A stretch of DNA of 35,602 bases from Clostridia bacterium. Lineage in GTDB: Bacteria; Bacillota; Clostridia; Oscillospirales; CAG-272. The notes under the pieces were generated by a model, which searched no databases, was not told where the DNA came from, and saw only the letters and a list, made by a program, of their open reading frames with translations. How positions within the stretch are numbered: position 1 is the first letter of the stretch; each line of letters opens with the position of its first letter. This document shows, piece after piece, positions 14,904 to 30,428 of the stretch. The translations under genes were made by a program, and so were the position numbers. The stretch covers positions 1 to 35,602 of the forward strand of contig JAFTJZ010000012.1 in NCBI GenBank assembly GCA_017456145.1. The letters are read 5' to 3'.

Positions 14904-15977
14904 TCAATCCTTACACAGCGCGCCACAGCGGTCATACAGCTCCCGCAGCGTCCGTCGGTATGGCGCATATACGCCGCTCTCATCCAGGAGCAGCTCTGCC
15001 ATCATATGGCAGGACATGTGCAAAGCACTCGGATATTGCGGCGGGTCAGGCGTATCGATCCATGGGGAGAGCGGCACCGAGCAAGGTTCGCTGACATATC
15101 TCAACTGCCGCCGCACGAGCGTGAAAAAGTGTGTCATACTTTCCGCCGCCTCCGTATCCAGCCCCATCAGCCGCTGCTGCCGCGCAAGAAGCAGATAGGC
15201 GCGACACAACTCGCTCTCGTAATACCCCGCGTAATCTTCCCCAAGGACGGTTCGCCACAGCGTCACACTTGCCCTGCAGCGCATCAAGCGCAGCTTGGGA
15301 GGGGCGTCGTCGGGCAGGATGTCACGGTACGCAGCCTCGGCGATACTCATGGCAGTATAGGTCGTCCTTGCCGCTTGCTTTTGCAGCTTTTCGCCTTGCA
15401 TCACATAGCGCGCATACGATTCCCGAGCGTCCCGCAGCGAGGGCAGCTTTTGATAATATTCCCCTACCCGTGCGCGGATGCTCTCCTCGTTACACGCCGC
15501 ACAGATACGAATCATATATCGCCGCGCCGCCATGACCAGCGAATACTTGGTACAGGCTTGCTCAAGCAGTGCCATGGGAGTGAATAATTTCCCGACCCGC
15601 TCCGCGCTGCACAGCCGCTCATGATACGTCAGCTGCAACAGCGTCACGCACAGTCCATACGCGGCGGGATTTTGGCAAACGCTCTCATACAGCAGCGTCC
15701 ACGCCTCCTCTTTCTTTCCCTTCCGACACAGCTGCGCGCTCTTTTGTCGTACCTTCTTCTCAACACTGCGACACCGTTGCTCGTCCGTACCGAGCAGTGC
15801 ATCGGTAGTCGTGTGGAACAGCAACGCCAAACGCGACATAATCAGCACGTCGGGCAGGACCAGATCTCTTTCCCATTTGGAGACCGTCTGGGTCGATACC
15901 GACAGCATCCGTGCCAGCTGCTCTTGCGTCAGTCCCTCCTTGATGCGATGATTTCGAATGTTTTCGGACAGTTTCAT
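14904..15977 (-). CDS. XRE-family transcriptional regulator with long helical C-domain
   Basis: A 357-aa protein. Residues about 5-61 are a standard HTH_3 domain (IRNHRIKEGLTQEQLARML, then VSKWERDLVLPD). The remaining ~295 residues are helical and Cys/Arg-rich with TPR-like spacing (KKEEAWTLLYESV, EAAYRDIL, ELCRAYLLLARQQ) and may sense a peptide or metabolite. AAAGGAG lies seven bases before the ATG. It is 53 bp downstream of a lipoprotein gene in the same direction, probably one operon, so the lipoprotein may report to, or be controlled by, this regulator. The target is unknown. Confidence 0.85.
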   Translation of the reverse strand: MKLSENIRNHRIKEGLTQEQLARMLSVSTQTVSKWERDLVLPDVLIMSRLALLFHTTTDALLGTDEQRCRSVEKKVRQKSAQLCRKGKKEEAWTLLYESVCQNPAAYGLCVTLLQLTYHERLCSAERVGKLFTPMALLEQACTKYSLVMAARRYMIRICAACNEESIRARVGEYYQKLPSLRDARESYARYVMQGEKLQKQAARTTYTAMSIAEAAYRDILPDDAPPKLRLMRCRASVTLWRTVLGEDYAGYYESELCRAYLLLARQQRLMGLDTEAAESMTHFFTLVRRQLRYVSEPCSVPLSPWIDTPDPPQYPSALHMSCHMMAELLLDESGVYAPYRRTLRELYDRCGALCKD

Positions 15978-19674: not shown

Positions 19675-22600
19675 TCAGGCACCCATGCCCCTGCCCCGCT
19701 TGCGCAAGATCAGAACCGTCATGACACCGGCACCCACGGCGCAGGCAAGCACCACCGCCACAACGATGATGATCACGCCGCCCCTGTTTTGCTTGGCGTC
19801 GGGCGTTCGGTCGGCATTACGCTCAACGGGAGAGAGCGTGTCTTGCTCATTGACCGTTCCGATGTCGGGCAGCTCTTCCTCCGATCGAGCGGGATCCTCA
19901 TCCGCGTTGCCGCTGCCCCCCTGAGAGGACGGATCGGAGTTTGTGGCATCTTCGGCGCTCTTGCTCAGATAAAAATTATCGACCTTGAGTGTGACCGAGG
20001 TGTCATCCGTGATGTTTTGCGCGTTGACAAAGTAGATACGGAACTCGGTCGCCGCCGTTTGATCGATCCCCTTGTCAAGTCCTTTGGAGATGGGCAGGCG
20101 TATATGATTCCAGCCATTTTGCAAGTCGCCCGCCACCGCGCGATTCATCTGAGCAAAGCTCCATGACAGCGCACCATCATCCCAGCCTGCTGCCGAGCAA
20201 AGCTCCACAGCGGATGCCGCGACGTTCAACGCCGCATATGCCTCTACGTCCGAGATGTACAGATCAAATTCCAGCGCATCCACCGTCGTCAGATCGACAA
20301 CGGACGGCCCGCCAACGTTAACCAGCGGGATAGAGAGGATGGAACCCGTATTGACCTCCCCGTCCTCAAATGCGCCGAAGGTATAAGAGAGCGAGAATTT
20401 GCCCAGCGTCTTATGCTGCGCATCCACCGTCCAAGCACCGAGGCTCAAATTACAGCCAAACAAAGGAATCCGATCTGCGGCGGTCCACAGTTCGTTCGGA
20501 ATATCCTGCTCCCATGTGGCAAGATTGATCTCGGACTCGAGCTGAGCGGAGCCGTCGGGGAGGATATACATCCGGGTCTGCAGCAGTGACGGATCTGCCT
20601 TCACGCAGGTCAGGCGCACATTGTCAATACGCAAAACGACGTCGGTCGCCGCATCGACATTTGCGGCATCCTGCAAATAGATCGCCACGGTTGTCACGCT
20701 CCCAAGCGTTGTATTTCCCGAGAGCACCCCCGCCCCGATCGGCAGGCGTACGCGGTTCCAGCCCGTCACGACCGTCCCGCCGCACATATCCGCAATGTCC
20801 GCAAACGTCCAGCTGATGCTCCCGCCGCGCCCGTCGGTCGAGTGCATCATGGCACCGACACGCCCGAGCTGCAGTGCGGCAAGCTCCTCGGGGCTGCAGG
20901 AGAGATAGAGATCAAACTCCAGCGCATCCATTCGGCCGGCATCCGTGCCGCCGATCCATCCGTTGGCACTCCCCACCTTGATGACCAAGGGCGCACCGCG
21001 CATGACCGTCGTCTGCATTGAGCCGTCCTCAAGCAGCTCGATCATCTCACCAAAGCGATATTCCAGACATCTCCGTCCTCCCGTTGGCTTGACGCGACTG
21101 CACAGCCAATCCCCGATACCCGCATGACCGCCGTGGATGTACACGGTATGCTCATCGCCATCGGGCAGATCATAATCATAAGAGGTGGGCGTGACATACA
21201 TATGACTTCCGTCCTCCAACAGAAAGATCGTATCTCGCATATAATCGGACCACACGTCCCGATTCATGGGCATAGAAACGATCTCGTCCCACGACGGAGA
21301 GCCGGTATCATCGTAAAAGCCCACGCTGCTTAAGGTCAGGGTCAACTCGGCATCTCCGCAATCAAATTCACTGCTGTTAAAGATGAGGATCTCTTTGAGC
21401 GCACTGCTGTCGTACAGCGCCTCGCTTTGAAATTCGGAGAGCGGAATGAGCAGCGAATATCGCATCTGATCATCGTCGGTTGCGACGATGTACGGGAAAA
21501 GGGAGGAGAGATGTGCGATGGATTGATGATCCAACTGCCTCTCTTTTGACCGCAGCACAATGCTGAACGGCACATCCTTCAACAGCTTTTCATCCGAAAT
21601 ATTCAGATCGATGTACATCATCGTCGCATGGGATATATCGTAGCTCTTCACGGTTTGATATATCGTGCGGAACTGATACCAGATGCTGCCAAGATACTGC
21701 TTTCCCGACACGCTGCCGGTCAGCACCGTCGTGCGGGGCTGCTCGTCGATAAAGGGGTAGACAGGATTGACGCATAGAATCTGTCCGTCATGCGTAATCT
21801 GCATGGTTCTTGCCTCATCGGAGCGCCAGGAGGCACCGTTTGCTGCTGACACAACGACAAGATCACTCGTCGCGCGCAGCGAGGCATCCTTGGCAAAGGA
21901 AACATGATTGATGCCAATGGTCAGCCGCTGATCTCCGCACTCGACATGCTGCCCAGGCGGGAGATAGAACAAAAAGCGATTGAACGCCGTCCAATCAAAC
22001 GAATTCCCCTCAAAGGCGTCAAGTGGGATGAGCAGCGAATACCGCCCGTCCTCCTGCCGCACGACAAAATCAAACAGAGACGGCAGGAGCACATAAGCAT
22101 TTTTATGGTTTGAGGACAGCGCAATGCCAAAGGACACATCCTCAAGCAGCGTCGGCTCGGAGATATTCAGCTCCATATGCAGATACTTCGCCCGCGAAAT
22201 ATTCTCTTTCGTTTTCAGGTTGGCGGTGATGAAGAAGTCTCTATAATCACTCTTCCCCGTCAGATGCCTTGAGACCTTGGTCGTTATGGGCTGCTCGGAC
22301 ATAGGAGGGTATGCAGATACCACGTCCCCGCCCTCGGATCTCGTAAAGCGGAAGTGATCAATCTTGACAGTGACCCTTGTCTGCTCACTTACATTGGCGG
22401 CAGTGGCCATATACAGCCGCAGATAATTGACTGCCGAAAGATCAATCGCCCCGCCGCGCTTGACTCCACGGTCAAACGGCAGCCGCACGCGGTTCCAGCC
22501 AACCTGCGCCTCCCCTACAATGCCGTCGAGGATGTCCTGCAGCGTCCATTCCAACTCGTCTACATCCGCCATGCCCGACGAGGAGAGCTCCACACCCGCG

Positions 22601-23559
22601 ACAGCAAAATCCAGCGCGGTCAGCTCCGCCGGTGTGCAAGAGAGATACAGATCAAATTCCAATGCGTCCATCGCCATGGCGTTGACCGCACTGCCGCCAT
22701 CATGCGAGAACGGCAGTGAGAGAATGGCACTGTGGTTGTATTTCTGACTCACCGTGCCGTCTGCGGCGGCCTGCTCCACCACACCAAAGGTATAGGTCAG
22801 ACACGCATCTCCGGATGCAAGTGATGCATCGTCAAGCAACCAGCTCCCCACCGCGGTGTCACCGTCAAAGAACAAATAGCTGTCAGCGCTCCCGGGATCG
22901 ATGATCGGGGTCGCCTCGATCACATTGTACTCAATTGGCCGCAAGACGGTAGTACCCGTCACCCGCCAACCGCCATCCCCACTCTTTGCCTGGAGATGCA
23001 TGGGTATGACTGCCACATCCCCGATCACCTCGGACGAGGCAACCGAGGCAAAGGAGACGTGCCGCAGCTTGATGACAAGGGTCTCATCCCCGCAGTCGAT
23101 CATGTCCATGCAATACATACGGATACAATTCATGCGCGTGTAATCACACGCATTATCCGTTGCAATCGGCATAAAGGCGGACATGGGCACGTTCAATTCG
23201 TACCAGCCGTCCCCCAATGAGCGCAGACCCGCATTCAGCAGCGGGATCGGGCGGTTGCTCTCCTGTGTGTCCGGGTAGCTCGATGAGGTCAGCTCCAGCA
23301 TGAAATTGACCCCCTCAAGCAGCGAGGGATCGGAAATATACAGCTCCAGACGCATGACAGCAGCTCCCGATATATCATAACTCACATCTTGCGGTGCAAT
23401 AAAGTGAAACACCGGCAAGGGAAAGCCGCTCTTCCCCATAAGTGAGGCGGTGAGCTCCTGCGACTTCTCGTCCTGCTGCGCGAAAACCTCTGTCGTCGTT
23501 GCCGTCAGGCAAGCGAAAAACAAACTAAGAACCAAACAAACATAAATCCATCGTTTCAT
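19675..23559 (-). CDS. Large secreted, membrane-anchored multi-module beta-sandwich protein
   Basis: A 1294-aa protein. The start MKRWIY is set by AAAGGAGGT seven bases upstream. There is a signal peptide (cleaved near EVFAQQ), then six repeating beta-sandwich modules of two types: type A (LELYISDPSLLEGV, LNISEPTLLEDV, LNISDEKLLKDV) and type B (MDALEFDLYLSC, twice, and VDALEFDLYISD, each followed by a GWNR/HIRLPI strand). Type B is shared with the 355-aa and 898-aa proteins. An acidic Ser-rich linker leads to a C-terminal membrane helix (GVIIIVVAVVLACAVGAG) and an Arg/Lys tail (LRKRGRG). It probably binds an extracellular glycan; no catalytic motif is seen. The gene sits downstream of the 21-bp repeat array. 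Confidence 0.85.
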   Translation of the reverse strand: MKRWIYVCLVLSLFFACLTATTTEVFAQQDEKSQELTASLMGKSGFPLPVFHFIAPQDVSYDISGAAVMRLELYISDPSLLEGVNFMLELTSSSYPDTQESNRPIPLLNAGLRSLGDGWYELNVPMSAFMPIATDNACDYTRMNCIRMYCMDMIDCGDETLVIKLRHVSFASVASSEVIGDVAVIPMHLQAKSGDGGWRVTGTTVLRPIEYNVIEATPIIDPGSADSYLFFDGDTAVGSWLLDDASLASGDACLTYTFGVVEQAAADGTVSQKYNHSAILSLPFSHDGGSAVNAMAMDALEFDLYLSCTPAELTALDFAVAGVELSSSGMADVDELEWTLQDILDGIVGEAQVGWNRVRLPFDRGVKRGGAIDLSAVNYLRLYMATAANVSEQTRVTVKIDHFRFTRSEGGDVVSAYPPMSEQPITTKVSRHLTGKSDYRDFFITANLKTKENISRAKYLHMELNISEPTLLEDVSFGIALSSNHKNAYVLLPSLFDFVVRQEDGRYSLLIPLDAFEGNSFDWTAFNRFLFYLPPGQHVECGDQRLTIGINHVSFAKDASLRATSDLVVVSAANGASWRSDEARTMQITHDGQILCVNPVYPFIDEQPRTTVLTGSVSGKQYLGSIWYQFRTIYQTVKSYDISHATMMYIDLNISDEKLLKDVPFSIVLRSKERQLDHQSIAHLSSLFPYIVATDDDQMRYSLLIPLSEFQSEALYDSSALKEILIFNSSEFDCGDAELTLTLSSVGFYDDTGSPSWDEIVSMPMNRDVWSDYMRDTIFLLEDGSHMYVTPTSYDYDLPDGDEHTVYIHGGHAGIGDWLCSRVKPTGGRRCLEYRFGEMIELLEDGSMQTTVMRGAPLVIKVGSANGWIGGTDAGRMDALEFDLYLSCSPEELAALQLGRVGAMMHSTDGRGGSISWTFADIADMCGGTVVTGWNRVRLPIGAGVLSGNTTLGSVTTVAIYLQDAANVDAATDVVLRIDNVRLTCVKADPSLLQTRMYILPDGSAQLESEINLATWEQDIPNELWTAADRIPLFGCNLSLGAWTVDAQHKTLGKFSLSYTFGAFEDGEVNTGSILSIPLVNVGGPSVVDLTTVDALEFDLYISDVEAYAALNVAASAVELCSAAGWDDGALSWSFAQMNRAVAGDLQNGWNHIRLPISKGLDKGIDQTAATEFRIYFVNAQNITDDTSVTLKVDNFYLSKSAEDATNSDPSSQGGSGNADEDPARSEEELPDIGTVNEQDTLSPVERNADRTPDAKQNRGGVIIIVVAVVLACAVGAGVMTVLILRKRGRGMGA

Positions 23560-23591
23560 GGCTGTTACCTCCTTTCTCACAATTCAAGCCA

Positions 23592-23627
23592 TTTCAACAC
23601 ATCTTGAAAATGGGGAAACTTCCCCAT
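23592..23627. promoter_or_regulatory. Two inverted repeats in the leader of the 1294-aa gene
   Basis: ATGGGGAA-ac-TTCCCCAT (23610-23627) and TTTCAA-cacatc-TTGAAA (23592-23609) are perfect inverted repeats lying side by side between the expected transcription start and the ribosome binding site. They could be operators or RNA hairpins. Confidence 0.7.
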
Positions 23628-23640
23628 ATTACGTATATAC

Positions 23641-23723
23641 AGTTTATCATACATTGACAGATGTGTCAATAGCGTGGCGTAAAAAAGCGCAATGCGACAG
23701 CACTTTCTCCGTTTTCCACAAAT
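23641..23723 (-). promoter_or_regulatory. Promoter of 1294-aa gene with upstream Spo0A-like box
   Basis: On the minus strand, TTGACA (23669-23664), 17 bp and TAAACT (23646-23641) with a TG extended -10. The -35 is part of the palindrome TTGACA-gatg-TGTCAA (23654-23669). The box ATTTGTGGAAAACG (23710-23723) ends 40 bp upstream of the -35; its core TGTGGAA differs from the Spo0A box TGTCGAA at one base. Confidence 0.75.
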
Positions 23724-23781
23724 TTCAATGCCGATTTTTGGGCAACATCACGAAACGTCGCGTCATTTTTGATGCCTTTTA

Positions 23782-24239
23782 CCCCGTACAAACCATGACA
23801 TTCCCGCCTTCTCGGTGCGCGTGATCCCCCCATTGTCTGATCTGTAGTCGCGCCATGCACCCCGTACAAACCATGACATATCCCGTATGAATTCATATTC
23901 ACCCCGTATAAACCATGACACACGCCGTATCAAACCGTTAATACCCCGTATAAAACATGACACACCCCGCACAAATATTGACTCGCACGCGGCATCAAGC
24001 TGCCACAACCCCGTATAAAACATGACACACCCCATATAAATATAGACACTTCCTGCGCGCATGGATCTCCGCACCCCGTACAAAGCATGACAATACCCGT
24101 ATAAAAAGCGACATTTGCGCCTGCTCTCTCCCCTCCGCGACAATTGCAGCGCTCTATTTTGTGAGATTTTTTTCAATTCCATGGCAAAAAAAGAGTGTCC
24201 CGACCGCATTGGTCGGGACACCCCGTATAAATGATGACA
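23782..24239. repeat. Array of 19-bp direct repeats in 21-bp steps
   Basis: The consensus CCCCGTAYAAANCATGACA occurs at 23782, 23860, 23902, 23944, 23965, 24009, 24030, 24074, 24095 and 24221, with degraded copies at 23881 and 23923. Steps are mostly 21 or 42-44 bp, and two 65-bp higher-order units start at 23944 and 24009, with a third beginning at 24074. It fills the gap between the 355-aa gene and the promoter of the 1294-aa gene; the last copy lies between the 355-aa stop and its terminator. No real gene is seen in this stretch; a 161-codon minus-strand frame across it only reflects the 7-codon repeat period. Confidence 0.88.
24188..24221 (-). terminator. Intrinsic terminator of 355-aa gene
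   Basis: GTGTCCCGACC (24195-24205) and GGTCGGGACAC (24211-24221) form a perfect 11-bp stem with a 5-base loop. On the minus strand it is followed by TCTTTTTTT, a textbook intrinsic terminator. Confidence 0.93.
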
Positions 24240-24251
24240 TTCCATCAAAAA

Positions 24252-25319
24252 TCACTGCTGTGATTGCTTTTGACGATCCTTTTTCTTGAGCAGCGCGTAG
24301 ACAACGATGTCGGCGATAAAGATCAGTGCAGCACTAATCGAGAGCACCGTGAGCATGGTTTTATCGCTGACTTCAATGGGCTCGACCTTACTGTCGTTCC
24401 CATCGTCACCCCCGGATTCACCAAGGTACTCATCGTACCGCTCCAGCCATCTGCCGACGCGATTGAGCTGGATCTTCGCTCCCATATCGCTCAGCATATT
24501 CTTGACGATACTCTCCTGTGCGTCATATTTCTCGTCCAGCGTCGTGAAAAGCGTACGCCAGCTCTCGGCATTTTTCTTGTACTGTGCGACAATATCGGCG
24601 TTTGTCTCATCCCACTCGGGAATATCCTTCAGCTTTTCTTCCAGCTCGGCGGCAAATTCCTGCGCAACGGGCGTCAGCTTTTCCGTCATCTGTGCCTCAT
24701 AATCGGTCAGGCGGATCGCGTCGATCTTGATGACAATGGGCGTGGCGGGCGCTGCCACAGCATTGACAAAATACCAGCGAAGGTAGTTCAGTCGGGTCAG
24801 ATCAGCTTGCCCGTTGTTGTTCAGCGACAAACGGATCTCGTTCCAGCCGTTCTGCTTGCACTGGGCGAGAATATCCGGCAAGCGCCAGTTGGTCTCCTCT
24901 TTGTCGTGTGTACCTGAGGAGGTCAACTCGAAGGCGTTGTCAGCAAAGGCAACCTGCGACAGCGCGTCCTTGTCGGAGACGTAGAACCAAAATTCCAGCG
25001 TGTCCATCTTGGAGGCGTCGACCGACGCCTTGCCGAGAACATCCTCAAACCGGAAACTAAAACCGGATTGCCCGAGATTGGTCACCTGGTTCCCCTCCCC
25101 GTCGGTATAGGTGCCGAGCGTGTAGGTCAGGCTGGAGTTACCCGCCTTGAAGTCCTTTTGATCCACGGCAAACGCACCGAGCGGCGCGTCGCAAGCAAAC
25201 AGCGGAATGCTGTGCGCGGTCGTAACCGCCTCGACGTTCTCCGTCGCTGCAAATGCAGATATGGTCATGCTCGAGATCAGCAGAGTGAATGTGAGAAGTA
25301 TCGTCAGAAATTTTTTCAT
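24252..25319 (-). CDS. Secreted, membrane-anchored single-module beta-sandwich protein
   Basis: A 355-aa protein: signal peptide (cleaved near SAFAATE), one beta-sandwich module (about 37-207, SIPLFACDAPLGAF to IKIDAIRLTDYEAQ), a charged helical or coiled-coil segment (208-300), an acidic Gly/Asp linker, a membrane helix (about 322-343) and a Lys-rich tail (KKKDRQKQ). It is nearly the same as the C-terminal third of the 898-aa protein; both carry THDKEETNWRLPDILAQ. AAGGAGG lies ten bases before the ATG; a nearer ATG is out of frame. The likely role is glycan or surface binding at the membrane; no enzyme motif is seen. Confidence 0.87.
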   Translation of the reverse strand: MKKFLTILLTFTLLISSMTISAFAATENVEAVTTAHSIPLFACDAPLGAFAVDQKDFKAGNSSLTYTLGTYTDGEGNQVTNLGQSGFSFRFEDVLGKASVDASKMDTLEFWFYVSDKDALSQVAFADNAFELTSSGTHDKEETNWRLPDILAQCKQNGWNEIRLSLNNNGQADLTRLNYLRWYFVNAVAAPATPIVIKIDAIRLTDYEAQMTEKLTPVAQEFAAELEEKLKDIPEWDETNADIVAQYKKNAESWRTLFTTLDEKYDAQESIVKNMLSDMGAKIQLNRVGRWLERYDEYLGESGGDDGNDSKVEPIEVSDKTMLTVLSISAALIFIADIVVYALLKKKDRQKQSQQ

Positions 25320-25360
25320 GGGTCATGATCCTCCTTGTGGGGACGTGTGCATTATGTATC

Positions 25361-25443
25361 ATTTTACCATGAAATGGCGCGTATGTCAATCGATTTTGAG
25401 AATTTGTTTGTCTCAAAGCAAAAATTTGCCGTTTTCGACAAAG
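25361..25443 (-). promoter_or_regulatory. Promoter of 355-aa gene with Spo0A box
   Basis: On the minus strand, TTGACA (25389-25384), 17 bp and TAAAAT (25366-25361), with TG in extended -10 position. The box CTTTGTCGAAAACG (25443-25430) ends 40 bp upstream and contains the exact Spo0A core TGTCGAA (25440-25434). Confidence 0.85.
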
Positions 25444-25614
25444 ACAGCCTCCCAAAATTGTGCATCTTGCCCATGGCAGGGCAGCAACATCAAACGATAA
25501 CAAGATATCAAATCGTATGCACCTTGAAGTCGCGTTGCCGGGAGACTTCCCTTCTGACAGAGGGCGCCGGAGCCTTGTCCGTCCCAAGACCCCGACACAG
25601 CCAAAGGCTGCTCC

Positions 25615-26421
25615 TTACCCCTGCCGATAGATTCTCTCCACCTCGTCAGGGCTCATGCGGAAGAAGGAAACGACCAGATACACTGTCGTCGCCACCGCCA
25701 AAATCACCGTGAAGATGACCGTGGGCGTATCCCACCATGAGCCGCCGCCCAGCGTGGGGAGCAGCATTCCACAGAAATCATAAATGGCGTGCAGCGCCAC
25801 GCAAAGCCAAAGATTGGCGGTCTTGAACAACACCACAGAGCACATCGCGCCGATCAAAAAGGAATACCCGATCTGCATGATGGTCGCGGGCAGCCCCGCG
25901 CCCGCCAACAAATTGACCGCGTGCATCGCGCCGAAAACCGCGGAGGTCAGCAGAATGCTGACCAGCAAGCCCGCGTGGGTACGGCGGCGCGTCTTGGCAA
26001 AGGTCAAAAGAACAACACCGCGAAATGCGATCTCCTCAAACAGCCCGATTGCAAGGCATTCCAAGGCAAAGCAAGCAATATAGATCGCCTCCCCGTGGAC
26101 AAGATACGCATCGCCCCATATCAACGAGAGAATGGGCAGGTTGTTGACCACCACGGCAAGCGGCGGCAGGATAAACAGCAGCGACTTGCCGTATGGCCGA
26201 CGAAAAGGGTGCAGCACGTGATATCCCTGCGACAAAAATATGACGAGAAACACCGCCGCTGCGATCAGCCGCGTCAGCGCCATGGTAAGAATCGGCTGCA
26301 GCACCGCATCGTCGGTCAGCGGTGGGCCGTATTCGATGAAGAGCAGCACAGGCGCGGCGACGGCAATTGCCACCAAGGACGCCCACCGTGGCAGCGTCCT
26401 TGCGCGAACCGTATCAGCCAT
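25615..26421 (-). CDS. CPBP-family intramembrane glutamic endopeptidase
   Basis: A 268-aa membrane protein with about eight helices. The CAAX-protease/ABI motifs are all present: FEEIAFRG (Glu129, Glu130, Arg134), FGAMH (His167) and HAIYDF (His211, Asp215). Such proteases cleave membrane substrates and are often linked to surface-protein or peptide processing. The start ATG overlaps the lgt-like gene by eight bases, with GGGAGG eight bases before it, so translation is probably coupled. The link to lipoprotein or surface-protein maturation is inferred from this pairing. Confidence 0.9.
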   Translation of the reverse strand: MADTVRARTLPRWASLVAIAVAAPVLLFIEYGPPLTDDAVLQPILTMALTRLIAAAVFLVIFLSQGYHVLHPFRRPYGKSLLFILPPLAVVVNNLPILSLIWGDAYLVHGEAIYIACFALECLAIGLFEEIAFRGVVLLTFAKTRRRTHAGLLVSILLTSAVFGAMHAVNLLAGAGLPATIMQIGYSFLIGAMCSVVLFKTANLWLCVALHAIYDFCGMLLPTLGGGSWWDTPTVIFTVILAVATTVYLVVSFFRMSPDEVERIYRQG

Positions 26422-27205
26422 GCGCGATGCCTCCCTGCTCTCCTGCCGCGCGGCGATCCAGATGCCGTTCCAACAAAAACAGCGCCACGGCACCGATAAT
26501 TATCACCAAGGAAAACAGCTGTGAGGGAGATAAGAAGGAAACAATGGTCTGTCCGCGGTCGTCGGCGCGCGCGTACTCGATGAAAAAGCGCCACACGCCG
26601 TAGGCAAGCATATACGTTGGCATCTGGTGCCGCAGCCCCTTTTTCATCATCACAAGCAAAAGCGCAGAGAGCGCAAACAGAAACAGCGCTTCATACAGCT
26701 GCACGGGCACGATGCGATACCCCGGATAAACGGTCTCAATGCCATACCATGCATCCGTTGCCTTGCCGTGGCAGCAGCCCGCCATCAGGCAACCAAGCCT
26801 GCCAAAGCCATGCGCTGTCGTCACGACCGCGGGGGTCAGATCCAGCAGGTCGCGGAAGTGTGCGACAAGGTAATCGCGGGGAAAGAGCAGCCGCCCCACG
26901 CCGAAGTAGTAGACGATGCCGACGATGACGCCGCCGAGCAAGCCGCCGTAAAAGGTCGAGCCGGTGTTGCTGTCCAGACGGAAGTCGCCCACCGAGGCAA
27001 TGTTGTATAAGCCCTGCACCAATATCGCGCAAAGATAACCCAGCAGCACCGCGATGGGTACCATCATCAGTAAGAAGTTGATCATTTTGGCCTTCAATGC
27101 CCGCATATCTCCTTGCAGACGCACCAAATAAATGCCGATAATAACACCGACAGTCATCAGAATACTGTATAGATCCAAGCCTAAAAATAATTTGTAGGGA
27201 TACAT
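26414..27205 (-). CDS. lgt: Prolipoprotein diacylglyceryl transferase-like protein
   Basis: A 263-aa polytopic membrane protein. Lgt attaches diacylglycerol to the lipobox cysteine of prolipoproteins. The signature TTAHGFGRLGCLMAGCCHG (His132, Arg136, Cys139, Cys144-Cys145) matches the GRxGC..GCC.G form common in Firmicutes homologues, and EYARADDRG near residue 215 supplies the second conserved Arg region. The start MYPYKLF is set by GGAGG five bases upstream; an earlier in-frame ATG lies inside the MITE-like repeat. It may be an extra copy beside a housekeeping lgt elsewhere, or a paralogue serving the many lipoproteins here. Confidence 0.87.
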   Translation of the reverse strand: MYPYKLFLGLDLYSILMTVGVIIGIYLVRLQGDMRALKAKMINFLLMMVPIAVLLGYLCAILVQGLYNIASVGDFRLDSNTGSTFYGGLLGGVIVGIVYYFGVGRLLFPRDYLVAHFRDLLDLTPAVVTTAHGFGRLGCLMAGCCHGKATDAWYGIETVYPGYRIVPVQLYEALFLFALSALLLVMMKKGLRHQMPTYMLAYGVWRFFIEYARADDRGQTIVSFLSPSQLFSLVIIIGAVALFLLERHLDRRAAGEQGGIAHG

Positions 27206-27224
27206 AGATACCTCCTTGCCAGTA

Positions 27225-27488
27225 TCATCGTGTAAAAAGAAATGATGTGATCTCGCCGTCCGTGTCGCCGTACTCCACCCAGCGCCCCTCTCCTCATCCA
27301 CCGCTGCGCGTGTCCACATAGGTTTGCCTTCGGTAAACATCCCCGCTGGGGAAGGCTTGCTGTTGATTTGTTCGCACCATCATACTCCACCCAGCGCCTC
27401 TCTCCTCCTCCACCGCTGCGCGTGTCCACATCAGTTTGTCCTTGTCAAACCTCCCCGCCGTATAACACCATTTCTTTTCACACGATGA
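27225..27488. mobile_element. MITE-like element with 27-bp terminal inverted repeats
   Basis: The ends 27225-27251 and 27462-27488 are inverted copies of one another (24 of 27 bases match, core TCATCGTGT and AAAAGAAATG). Inside are two direct copies of a 56-bp segment (27271-27326 and 27383-27438, 52 of 56 identical), 112 bp apart. No transposase is encoded. A non-autonomous transposable element is possible; no clear target duplication was seen. It fills most of the gap between the lgt-like gene and the 898-aa gene. Confidence 0.6.
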
Positions 27489-27527
27489 CAAAACGGAAGG
27501 GGTGCCAACCTAAGTCAGCACCCCTTC
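27488..27527 (-). terminator. Intrinsic terminator of 898-aa gene
   Basis: GAAGGGGTGC (27496-27505) and GCACCCCTTC (27518-27527) form a 10-bp stem; on the minus strand it is followed by CGTTTTGT. It lies 65 bases after the stop codon. Confidence 0.85.
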
Positions 27528-27591
27528 GTTGTTTATTTATCCTTCGTTACGCTGAAGGCAGCGCAACTTGGGAGTGTTGCTTTAGAAAGAA

Positions 27592-30288
27592 TCAGTCTTC
27601 CTTCTTGCGAGCAGCCATGGTGACCCATGCAGCAGCAAGCAGCATCATAGCGCCTGCACCAAGGGTGATAGCAGAGCCGCAGCCGCCCTCATCCTTGGGA
27701 GTATCATCACCGGGAGTCTGGGTCTCGTCTCCACCGGGAGTCTGGGTCTCATCCCCACCGGGAGTCTGGGTCTCATCCCCACCGGGAGTCTGAGTCTCAT
27801 CCTCGGGAGGATTGTTCTTCTGCTCCTCAAGATCCTTGAGGTAGTTGTCATAGTTGCGGAAGGACTTGTTGAGGTTGGTCAGCAGCTTCTTCGCGCCTGC
27901 CTCGGAAACGAGATCCTGTGCGATGGTGCTCAGAGCTTTCAGCTCACCATCCAGCTCGTCGTAAATAGCCTGCCATGCATCGCGGTTAGCCTGATACTGA
28001 GCGATGATAGACTCATCCTCATCATCAAACGCAGGAATGGTACCGATCTTCTCGTTGATCTTTGCAACCATTGCGTCAGCAGCGGGCTTCTCGAGCTCTC
28101 TCTGCTGTGCCTGATAGTCGGTCAGACGGAGGTTGTCGATCTTGATGATGATGGGCTCCTCGGGGAGGTTAGATGCGTTGACGAAGTACCAGCGCATGTA
28201 GTTCAGTCTGGACCAGTCGGTAGCAGTACCGCTGATGGGCAGACGGATTGCAGTCCAAGTGTTGTTCTCGGTAACCTGTGCGAGAATGTCGGGCAGTCTC
28301 CAGTTGGTCTCTTCCTTATCGTGAGTACCTGCGGAGGTCAGCTCCAGAGCGTTATCGCCAAAGCCTGCATTTGCCAGAGCGTCCTTATCGGAAACGTAGA
28401 ACCAGAACTCAAGAGTATCCATGCCGGTAGCATCGATGGACTCTTCACCTGCGAAGTCGATGGTCTTGTAAGCAAAACCGGACTGACCGTTCTGGGTCTT
28501 CTCTACTTCTTCCTTGGTCTCCTTGTCGATCTCGGTCCAAGTGCCGAGCTTGAAGGACAGGGAGGAAGAACCGGACTTGAACTCCTTGTAGTCAACGGTC
28601 CATTGACCGACTGGAGCGTTACAACCGAACAGAGGAATGGAGTGCTCGTCAGCGGTCATCTCTTTCTCGTCAGCCTCGATCATAGGAGGAGTTACAACAA
28701 CCAAATCGGGATCCTGCTCCCAATCGGTGTAGCTGACAGCGACCGTGATCGGAACTTCCTTGCCGCCTTCCTTGAAACGGATCTGACCACCGTTGCCGTC
28801 CTCAACATTGTTGTCGGCAACGCGGATGTACAGAATGAAACCTGCAGAAACGTACTTGGTGGTGTTGATGTAATCATTGACGTTGATGACGTGCAGGCCG
28901 GTGCCGGGAATCGTGTCCTCAGCGTCATAAATGGTAACGTATTCAGATGCCTTGTTCTTGACAGCAACCTGTACCAGTGCCTGCGCACCGCCCAGAGGAG
29001 CAACGACGTAAACGCTGCTGGGAGGAATGTACTCAAAGGTCATCTCATAAACGATCTCAGCTTCCTTATCAGCGAACATGCAATCCGTATTCTGGCTTGC
29101 CGTGCTGATCAGTCTGACGTTCTCGGGCAGAGCAGCCTCGTTACCTACGGGGAGAGTGTACTCCTGGTAGTAGGTAGCAGCGGAGTCGCTGAACTGAACG
29201 TATGCCAGATTGAACTTGATATCGGTCTCGGCAACACCGGTGTTGGTGTAGAGACGGATATAGTTGATTGCGGAGAAGTCTGCACCGTCACCAAGGGCGA
29301 ATGCGGACAGCGGAACGCGGGTGGTGGACCAACCGTTGTAGACGTTGTTGAAGTAACCGGTGTAGTTGCTCTCCTGCTTATCGCACTCGCCGCTGGAGGT
29401 CAGCTCCATCTCGAACTTGATATCCTTCAGAGCATCTGCGCCGTCAATCTTAGCGTAGATATCAACGTAATTGTAGGTGGTCAGATCCATCGGCTCGTCA
29501 AGAACGACGGAGGTGAGCATACCCTTACCTGCACCAACGTCTGCACCTGCACTCATGGTGAAGTCTCTGGTGCCGGCGAAGTCGGTGTAGTTCAAGCCGC
29601 CCCAAGCGCCGCCATTGGTCTTCGCATCCTTCTGGAGCTCAGCAATGGTCTCGCCTGCATCGTTAACGAACTTAATGCTACCGATGTTCATGTCGGCGAT
29701 TACGCCTTCAGGAATTTCGATCTCGCCATCCTGGTCTGCACGGTTGAACCAACGCAGGTCGTTCATGCGGGTCAGATCGGCAGTACCGGATGCCCAGTTG
29801 GTCATGGGGATCGTAATGGTGTTCCAACCCTCAACCAGAGCGCCGCCCTCTGCGTACTGGCTGAATGCAGCAACGTAAGCGTTCTCCTCGTTGTCGGGCT
29901 TACCGTCGGAACCGATCTCCATCTCAAACGTCTTACCGTTCAGGTAATCGGGATGAGACACGTACATCTCAACAACCAGATTAGCTGCGCCGGTGATGTC
30001 GTAGGCAATAGCCTCGTGTGTGTCGGTCTCGTTACCGTTCCAGCTGAACAGAACGCCACCAACGCCATACTTGTTGGGAGCAAGCGTCTTGGTGAGCACT
30101 CCGCCCTCAGGGCTGGCTACGAAAGTACCGCCGTTGAATTTTTCGGCCTCGATACGGATAGTATTCGATTCCGTCGGTCTTGTTTCGCCTTCGGCTGCTG
30201 CATCATCGGTTTCCTCTGCTGCGACTACGAGAGTCATGCAGGACAGGATCATGCAGAGCGCCAAAAGCATTGCTAAAAATTTTTTCAT
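27592..30288 (-). CDS. Abundant-type secreted surface protein with four beta-sandwich modules and a C-terminal anchor
   Basis: An 898-aa protein. Signal peptide (cleaved near VVAAEE), four sandwich modules (about 42-208, 225-366, 370-520 and 549-725), a helical segment (725-826), a DETQTPGG spacer repeated four times (827-867) and a tail GGCGSAITLGAGAMMLL with an RKKED end (Cys870). The fourth module and helical segment match the 355-aa protein. Codons are strongly biased (GCT/GCA, GGT, TCC, AAG, ACC) unlike its paralogues, suggesting very high expression. AAAGGAGG lies 11 bases before the ATG. It is probably a major surface protein, possibly glycan-binding or scaffold-forming; no catalytic motif is seen. 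Confidence 0.87.
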   Translation of the reverse strand: MKKFLAMLLALCMILSCMTLVVAAEETDDAAAEGETRPTESNTIRIEAEKFNGGTFVASPEGGVLTKTLAPNKYGVGGVLFSWNGNETDTHEAIAYDITGAANLVVEMYVSHPDYLNGKTFEMEIGSDGKPDNEENAYVAAFSQYAEGGALVEGWNTITIPMTNWASGTADLTRMNDLRWFNRADQDGEIEIPEGVIADMNIGSIKFVNDAGETIAELQKDAKTNGGAWGGLNYTDFAGTRDFTMSAGADVGAGKGMLTSVVLDEPMDLTTYNYVDIYAKIDGADALKDIKFEMELTSSGECDKQESNYTGYFNNVYNGWSTTRVPLSAFALGDGADFSAINYIRLYTNTGVAETDIKFNLAYVQFSDSAATYYQEYTLPVGNEAALPENVRLISTASQNTDCMFADKEAEIVYEMTFEYIPPSSVYVVAPLGGAQALVQVAVKNKASEYVTIYDAEDTIPGTGLHVINVNDYINTTKYVSAGFILYIRVADNNVEDGNGGQIRFKEGGKEVPITVAVSYTDWEQDPDLVVVTPPMIEADEKEMTADEHSIPLFGCNAPVGQWTVDYKEFKSGSSSLSFKLGTWTEIDKETKEEVEKTQNGQSGFAYKTIDFAGEESIDATGMDTLEFWFYVSDKDALANAGFGDNALELTSAGTHDKEETNWRLPDILAQVTENNTWTAIRLPISGTATDWSRLNYMRWYFVNASNLPEEPIIIKIDNLRLTDYQAQQRELEKPAADAMVAKINEKIGTIPAFDDEDESIIAQYQANRDAWQAIYDELDGELKALSTIAQDLVSEAGAKKLLTNLNKSFRNYDNYLKDLEEQKNNPPEDETQTPGGDETQTPGGDETQTPGGDETQTPGDDTPKDEGGCGSAITLGAGAMMLLAAAWVTMAARKKED

Positions 30289-30315
30289 CGCTCAAAATTC
30301 CTCCTTTAGAGCTTT

Positions 30316-30336
30316 CATAAACGTGTCCCGTTTATG
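30316..30336 (-). promoter_or_regulatory. 5' leader hairpin of 898-aa mRNA
   Basis: CATAAACG and CGTTTATG (8-bp perfect stem, loop of five) begin within a few bases of the expected transcription start. A 5'-terminal stem-loop often stabilises highly expressed mRNAs. Confidence 0.65.
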
Positions 30337-30345
30337 GTTAAGTAA

Positions 30346-30428
30346 ATTTTATCACGAAACGGGCATAATGTCAATGCTTTTTTCAAAATTTGTTCAAAAA
30401 AATTTAACTTTTTACGTTTTCGACAAAG
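30346..30428 (-). promoter_or_regulatory. Promoter of 898-aa gene with Spo0A box
   Basis: On the minus strand, TTGACA (30374-30369), 17 bp ending in TGA and TAAAAT (30351-30346). The box CTTTGTCGAAAACG (30428-30415), with the exact core TGTCGAA, ends 40 bp upstream of the -35. Confidence 0.87.

Follow-up and report, generated by a model that had tools for sequence, protein, structure and literature searches.

A box at a fixed distance upstream of three paralogous surface-protein genes in a Clostridia bacterium, with Spo0A as the candidate reader

The window analysed here, that is, the whole stretch of 35,602 nucleotides from a Clostridia bacterium, carries three minus-strand genes for secreted, membrane-anchored proteins, each preceded by a promoter and a short box (Table 1). 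Signal peptides and C-terminal anchors were called by reading the translations. The probable translation start of gene 1 is not the GTG but the ATG at 23559, which follows AGGAGG. A CAAX-protease-like gene and an Lgt-like gene lie between genes 2 and 3.

Table 1. Coordinates of the genes, promoters, boxes and leader hairpin at the locus.
Feature	Position	Strand	Description
Gene 1	19675..23580	minus	1301-aa frame; secreted; several CBM-like domain copies; C-terminal membrane anchor
Gene 1 sigma-A promoter	23641..23669	minus	TTGACA-17-TAAACT, TGn-extended
Gene 1 -35 TTGACA	23669-23664	minus	exactly 40 bases from box 1
Box 1 TTTGTGGAAAACG	23722-23710	minus	core TGTGGAA, C4 replaced by G
Gene 2	24252..25319	minus	355 aa; signal peptide; one CBM-like beta domain; helical region; C-terminal anchor
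Gene 2 sigma-A promoter	25361..25389	minus	TTGACA-17-TAAAAT, TGn-extended
Gene 2 -35 TTGACA	25389-25384	minus	exactly 40 bases from box 2
Box 2 TTTGTCGAAAACG	25442-25430	minus	exact Spo0A core TGTCGAA
Gene 3	27592..30288	minus	898 aa; signal peptide; several domain copies; C-terminal anchor
Gene 3 5' leader hairpin	30316..30336	minus	folded; stem with a compensatory pair change in the G003 ortholog
Gene 3 sigma-A promoter	30346..30374	minus	TTGACA-17-TAAAAT, TGn-extended
Gene 3 -35 TTGACA	30374-30369	minus	exactly 40 bases from box 3
Box 3 TTTGTCGAAAACG	30427-30415	minus	exact Spo0A core TGTCGAA

By alignment, identity to gene 2 was 29-50% for seven copies of the domain in genes 1 and 3, the last copy of gene 3 reaching 50%, and on sequence grounds the three genes are paralogs. 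Genes 2 and 3 had no Pfam or NCBIfam model scoring above cut-off, gene 1 gave no match in a Pfam scan, and gene 3 matched Pfam SGBP_B_XBD weakly, below cut-off. The AlphaFold2 model of gene 2, built from window sequences only (pLDDT 81.5, pTM 0.66), combined a beta-sandwich with a helical region and ended in a helix that reads as a membrane anchor. The best four Foldseek matches of this model were CBM8, CBM4, an alginate-binding module and CBM4-2 (E 1.5e-5 to 1.8e-4, TM by query 0.21-0.30), with E 1.5e-5 and TM by target 0.62 for CBM8 7t7y; model and search place gene 2 among CBM-type beta-sandwiches, although TM by query was low. The sandwich resembles those of CBM4/CBM8-like modules and of SGBP-type surface glycan-binding proteins, whereas sequence identity was 10-15% and the proteins described here, in a Gram-positive setting, have a C-terminal membrane anchor; the fold also matched other beta-sandwich proteins, TtX122 and FlaA1, at E < 0.001. 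Judged by fold alone, surface glycan binding is the likely role of the three proteins.

The geometry described in the initial annotation was exact in all three promoters, including box coordinates, the 40-bp distance from box to -35, the 17-bp spacer and the TG-extended -10; boxes 2 and 3 contain the core TGTCGAA and box 1 differs from it by one base (TGTGGAA), also as described. In contrast, the shared promoter layout proved to be the ordinary sigma-A promoter of the source genome: TTGACAN16-18TANNNT occurred 436 times vs. 36 in the reversed control, and TTGAC[A/T] followed by 17 bp with TGn was present in 12 of 14 paralog promoters. The layout is a housekeeping pattern, generic in this genome, and therefore no sign of shared control; it was rejected as such.

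The box behaved differently from the layout around it. The word common to the three promoters, TTTGTSGAAAACG, was found exactly three times in the 2,922,551-base genome, every time at these promoters (one match in the reversed control), and within the window the 13-mer with up to two mismatches occurred nine times vs. 1.37 expected. When box, 40 free positions and TTGACA were searched together across the genome allowing three mismatches, the three promoters matched with none and three other places with three (two matches in the reversed control). Pairwise identity among the boxes was 12/13, 12/13 and 13/13, whereas it was 11/40, 16/40 and 19/40 for the 40-bp stretches between box and -35, and the 17-bp spacers agreed at 5-9 positions; of the 10 bases that precede boxes 2 and 3, seven match. 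Box and distance look selected because they were kept in diverged paralogs while the stretch between them has drifted. From sequence, then, the boxes are a real, selected and shared operator in candidate form, and the proposal that a single regulator acts on the three genes through a fixed box is well supported by the exact 13-mer, the held distance and the drifted intervening DNA.

Other features surround the promoters. The -35 of gene 1 is overlapped by an inverted repeat, TTGACA-CATC-TGTCAA. A second leader hairpin in the window lies at 23610-23627, and 8 of 14 folded leaders had a hairpin near the expected transcription start, a count made with no shuffle control. Stem compensation was seen by eye between gene 3 and its ortholog in genome G003, and between the C6a and C6c paralogs (L071, L072, L079). 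Judged from these folds, the leader hairpin may be a selected RNA structure, with mRNA stability as a possible role. Matches to the core in the C6b and C6d leaders (CCTGTCGAAAAAT, CTTGTTGAAAATA) were rejected as operators, since they lie in or beside leader hairpins. Between gene 2 and box 1, a degenerate 21-bp array CACCCCGTATAAACCATGACA extends over 23780-24239, of which TRF reported 8.6 copies over 23858-24040; the gene 3 ortholog in G003 is preceded by three degenerate copies, and no exact match to the repeat was found in viral contigs. Rfam gave nothing in the window at gathering scores.

Spo0A, named in the initial annotation as the regulator, is encoded in the source genome, which answers the first check proposed there. 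The genome gave one Spo0A_C match (PF08769, E 6.1e-47) and the full-length equivalog TIGR02875 scored 274.8 bits against a cut-off of 200; Spo0A_C was found in all six genomes of the genus. The DNA-reading helix, SRVERAIRHAIEVAW, is identical to that in PDB 1LQ1, which we take to be a Spo0A-DNA complex. The closest named relatives of the protein (73% identity) came from uncultured Clostridia/Oscillospiraceae MAGs, and many of the 80 Spo0A relatives kept originated, by their record titles, from the ruminant gut. The source assembly consists of 117 contigs with an estimated contamination of 7.49%, in line with which several matches were duplicated at the same score or sequence on the contig pairs C45/C87, C25/C94 and C23/C90. 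SpoIIAA/AB/sigF-like genes, named by reading and with all sigma matches below the sigF cut-off, were located on contig C28, where a reversed 0A variant, TTTGACAAA, covers a -35-like site upstream of them; TGTCAAA stands just behind the -10 of the genome's own spo0A. As separate observations, a 245-aa frame beside spo0A in G003 (C144) lacks a receiver domain and comprises two Spo0A_C domains in tandem, their recognition helices altered, and genome G005 (C107) gave two Spo0A_C matches in one frame.

The core was also enriched upstream of the wider surface family. In the 90 bp upstream of the -35 of 14 non-duplicate surface paralogs, forward-strand TGTCGAA ranked first among 16384 7-mers, being present in five genes vs. 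0.17 expected (P ~1e-6, or ~0.02 after allowing for 16384 words), in a test that had been prompted by two of these five genes, namely genes 2 and 3. Without the three genes of the window, TGTCGAA remained in 3 of 11 paralogs, two of them close paralogs of each other. The distance from core to -35 was 44 bp in genes 2 and 3, 26 bp in each of the two close C6 paralogs and 15 bp in the C107 paralog, where TGTCAAG occurs just before TGTCGAA. In the source genome, only genes 1-3 follow the exact 40-bp rule, and a 40-bp box in all paralogs was rejected because the 11 other non-duplicate ones have no such box, two of them (C23, C33) being genes for which no convincing promoter was found. Across the source genome (G000), TGTCGAA lay 18-48 bp upstream of TTGACAN16-18TANNNT at 10 places, nine without one duplicated contig and seven when the two of the window were set aside as well, vs. 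0.6-0.8 expected for the 436 promoters; the control gave 0, but in it the promoter was reversed too.

Conservation outside the genome was less favourable. A search with gene 3 at 1e-25 found matches in 4 of 146 family genomes, its own included, and the only near-full-length relative among them was the G003 ortholog (38% protein identity over residues 1-888). This ortholog has the same kind of sigma-A promoter and its genome has Spo0A; its promoter (L079) contained no box, with five mismatches at 40 bp and a best score of four at 41 bp. Retention of the box in orthologous promoters, the other check that had been proposed, was thus negative at 40 bp for the one ortholog found, and the box was likewise absent upstream of four remoter homologs (G002, G123, G010), where the 40-bp position showed 9-11 mismatches. 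The surface gene was also looked for in named genomes, where all 24 candidate stretches failed.

The spo0A promoters of relatives were examined over 200 bp upstream in 79 sequences, one of the 80 being cut at a contig end. Forward TGTCGAA appeared once vs. 1.0 expected, TGTCAAA 8 times vs. 2.5, reversed TTCGACA 8 times vs. 0.9 (P ~5e-6 if rows are independent, which they are not, being related) and reversed TTTGACA 5 times vs. 2.6. As support for autoregulation these promoters are equivocal. TATGGTA was present in 60 and TTACCAA in 32 of the 79, a conserved element that may partly represent the -10 region. Speaking for Spo0A, whose C. difficile targets include sigH, the SigH-like sigma genes of other genera in the family have TTTGTCGAAAA or TTTGTGGAAAA boxes upstream of their promoters: TTGTCGAAA lies 28 bp before the -35 in L125, L130 and L131, equal to 25 bp on the 13-mer scale, and two g35 genomes (L036, L037) have TTTGTGGAAAA, the 13-mer lying 40 bp from the -35. 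In each of the three among these five proteins that were scanned, spore_sigH was the second-best match, all SigH-type models falling far below their cut-offs.

According to an excerpt of the study of the C. difficile Spo0A DNA-binding domain (PMC3485338), this domain recognises the core TGTCGAA through contacts with G2, C4 and G5, shifts a sigH fragment, and binds with lower affinity when C4 is changed to A. Boxes 2 and 3 have the three contacted bases and resemble the Spo0A boxes of Bacillus and Clostridioides in that TGTCGAA is flanked by runs of T and A; as with known 0A boxes, those described here lie upstream of sigma-A promoters in a genome with a conserved Spo0A. In contrast to known boxes, box 1 lacks C4, three boxes stand at one exact distance, conservation continues beyond the 0A core into AACG, and a single predicted box precedes an already strong core promoter by 40 bp; no tandem second box was found at a fixed distance. 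The TGTGGAA of box 1 counts against Spo0A because C4 is a contact base in the excerpt cited. Taken together, the naming of Spo0A is upheld in part: the presence of spo0A and the top rank of TGTCGAA among paralog 7-mers speak for it, whereas the G003 ortholog without a box and box 1 without C4 speak against it. As the one controlling factor, Spo0A appears likelier than not, and we give slightly better than even chances to the reading that these are Spo0A boxes through which the genes for three secreted, membrane-anchored, CBM-like proteins are regulated together.

The most serious competitor, which we consider unlikely although it retains a real share of the probability, is a different regulator, accepting either C or G at base six and recognising the whole of the longer word, perhaps the XRE-type protein encoded locally. 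Such a regulator would fit a conserved word longer than the 0A core and an exact word confined to a 7-kb cluster, as expected from a local rather than a global factor; the TTTGTGGAAAA boxes at 40 bp before the SigH-like genes of L036 and L037 suggest, moreover, that the choice of C or G may belong to the true motif. An HTH_3 protein is indeed encoded in the window at 14904-15977, above the Pfam cut-off and with all NCBIfam matches below theirs. XRE sites are usually palindromic, however, and the box is not clearly so, and a local regulator would not explain the TGTCGAA core in paralogs on other contigs and at other distances.

It is improbable that the box is instead a fixed-distance upstream element of sigma-A promoters throughout the family, of the form TTTGTCGAAAAYG-N40-TTGACA. 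When an exact -35 was required, a closely similar word, TTTGTCGAAAATG, turned up at this distance upstream of two genes named by reading, each in three genomes: guaB in g67 (G285, G159 and, differing at one further base, G270) and a MinD/ParA-like gene in g55 (G111, G192 and, again differing at one further base, G249). The search for box, N40 and TTGACA with up to two mismatches, however, matched 47 of 295 genomes vs. 28 for the reversed control by our own count of the table, so over half of these matches may be chance. A small peak at 40 bp, 7 of 57 AT-rich spacers among the matches listed, fell to about five independent cases after relatives were collapsed, in a histogram covering 108 of 150 listed matches, and another peak of eight was situated 15 bp nearer, at the edge of the searched range; a family-wide preference for 40 bp is only suggestive. 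In the g67 guaB promoters (L039, L040, L041), an inverted box pair, TTTGTCGAAAATGATATTTTTTCGACAAA, was observed in G159, its first arm 40 bp before the -35; in G270 and G285 a single arm, different in each, has decayed.

Functionless remnants of promoter duplication or gene conversion are a similarly poor prospect, for although the genes are paralogous and the bases just upstream of boxes 2 and 3 largely match, the intervening stretches and the spacers agree poorly around a box intact in all three promoters, and the domain copies of genes 1 and 3 have diverged far from gene 2.

Under the preferred reading, with Spo0A acting on the boxes, the phosphorylated protein would occupy a site ahead of a near-consensus sigma-A promoter, some 76-88 bp from the transcription start; this position, approximately -88 to -76, was obtained by arithmetic from the hexamers and the 17-bp spacer. 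Its binding would tune transcription of genes 1-3 as growth slows, slowing growth being the presumed cue, and the effect would be stimulation rather than block. Stimulation is expected because the site lies upstream of the promoter and not inside or behind it; in an excerpt of PMC12090719, the upstream 0A boxes of spoIIG stimulate a step after RNA polymerase binding and a downstream abrB site acts as a roadblock. By position, stimulation thus seems distinctly more probable than repression. Gene 1 would respond more weakly, as expected because box 1 has lost one contacted base.

More tentatively, and with somewhat less than even confidence, the whole CBM-like, membrane-anchored surface family of these uncultured ruminant-gut Clostridia may be part of the Spo0A regulon, in which case the choice to cease growth or to sporulate would also reset the glycan-binding surface; in this one cluster a fixed single box near -80 would be used, the choice of C or G at a contacted base setting the strength for each gene. 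Because the three promoters share their geometry and one of them differs at one base, the cluster lends itself to comparing how spacing and one contacted base set the output of a far-upstream 0A box. If Spo0A reads the boxes, these little-known gut Clostridia would have the master switch of starvation and sporulation tied to their glycan-binding surface proteins.
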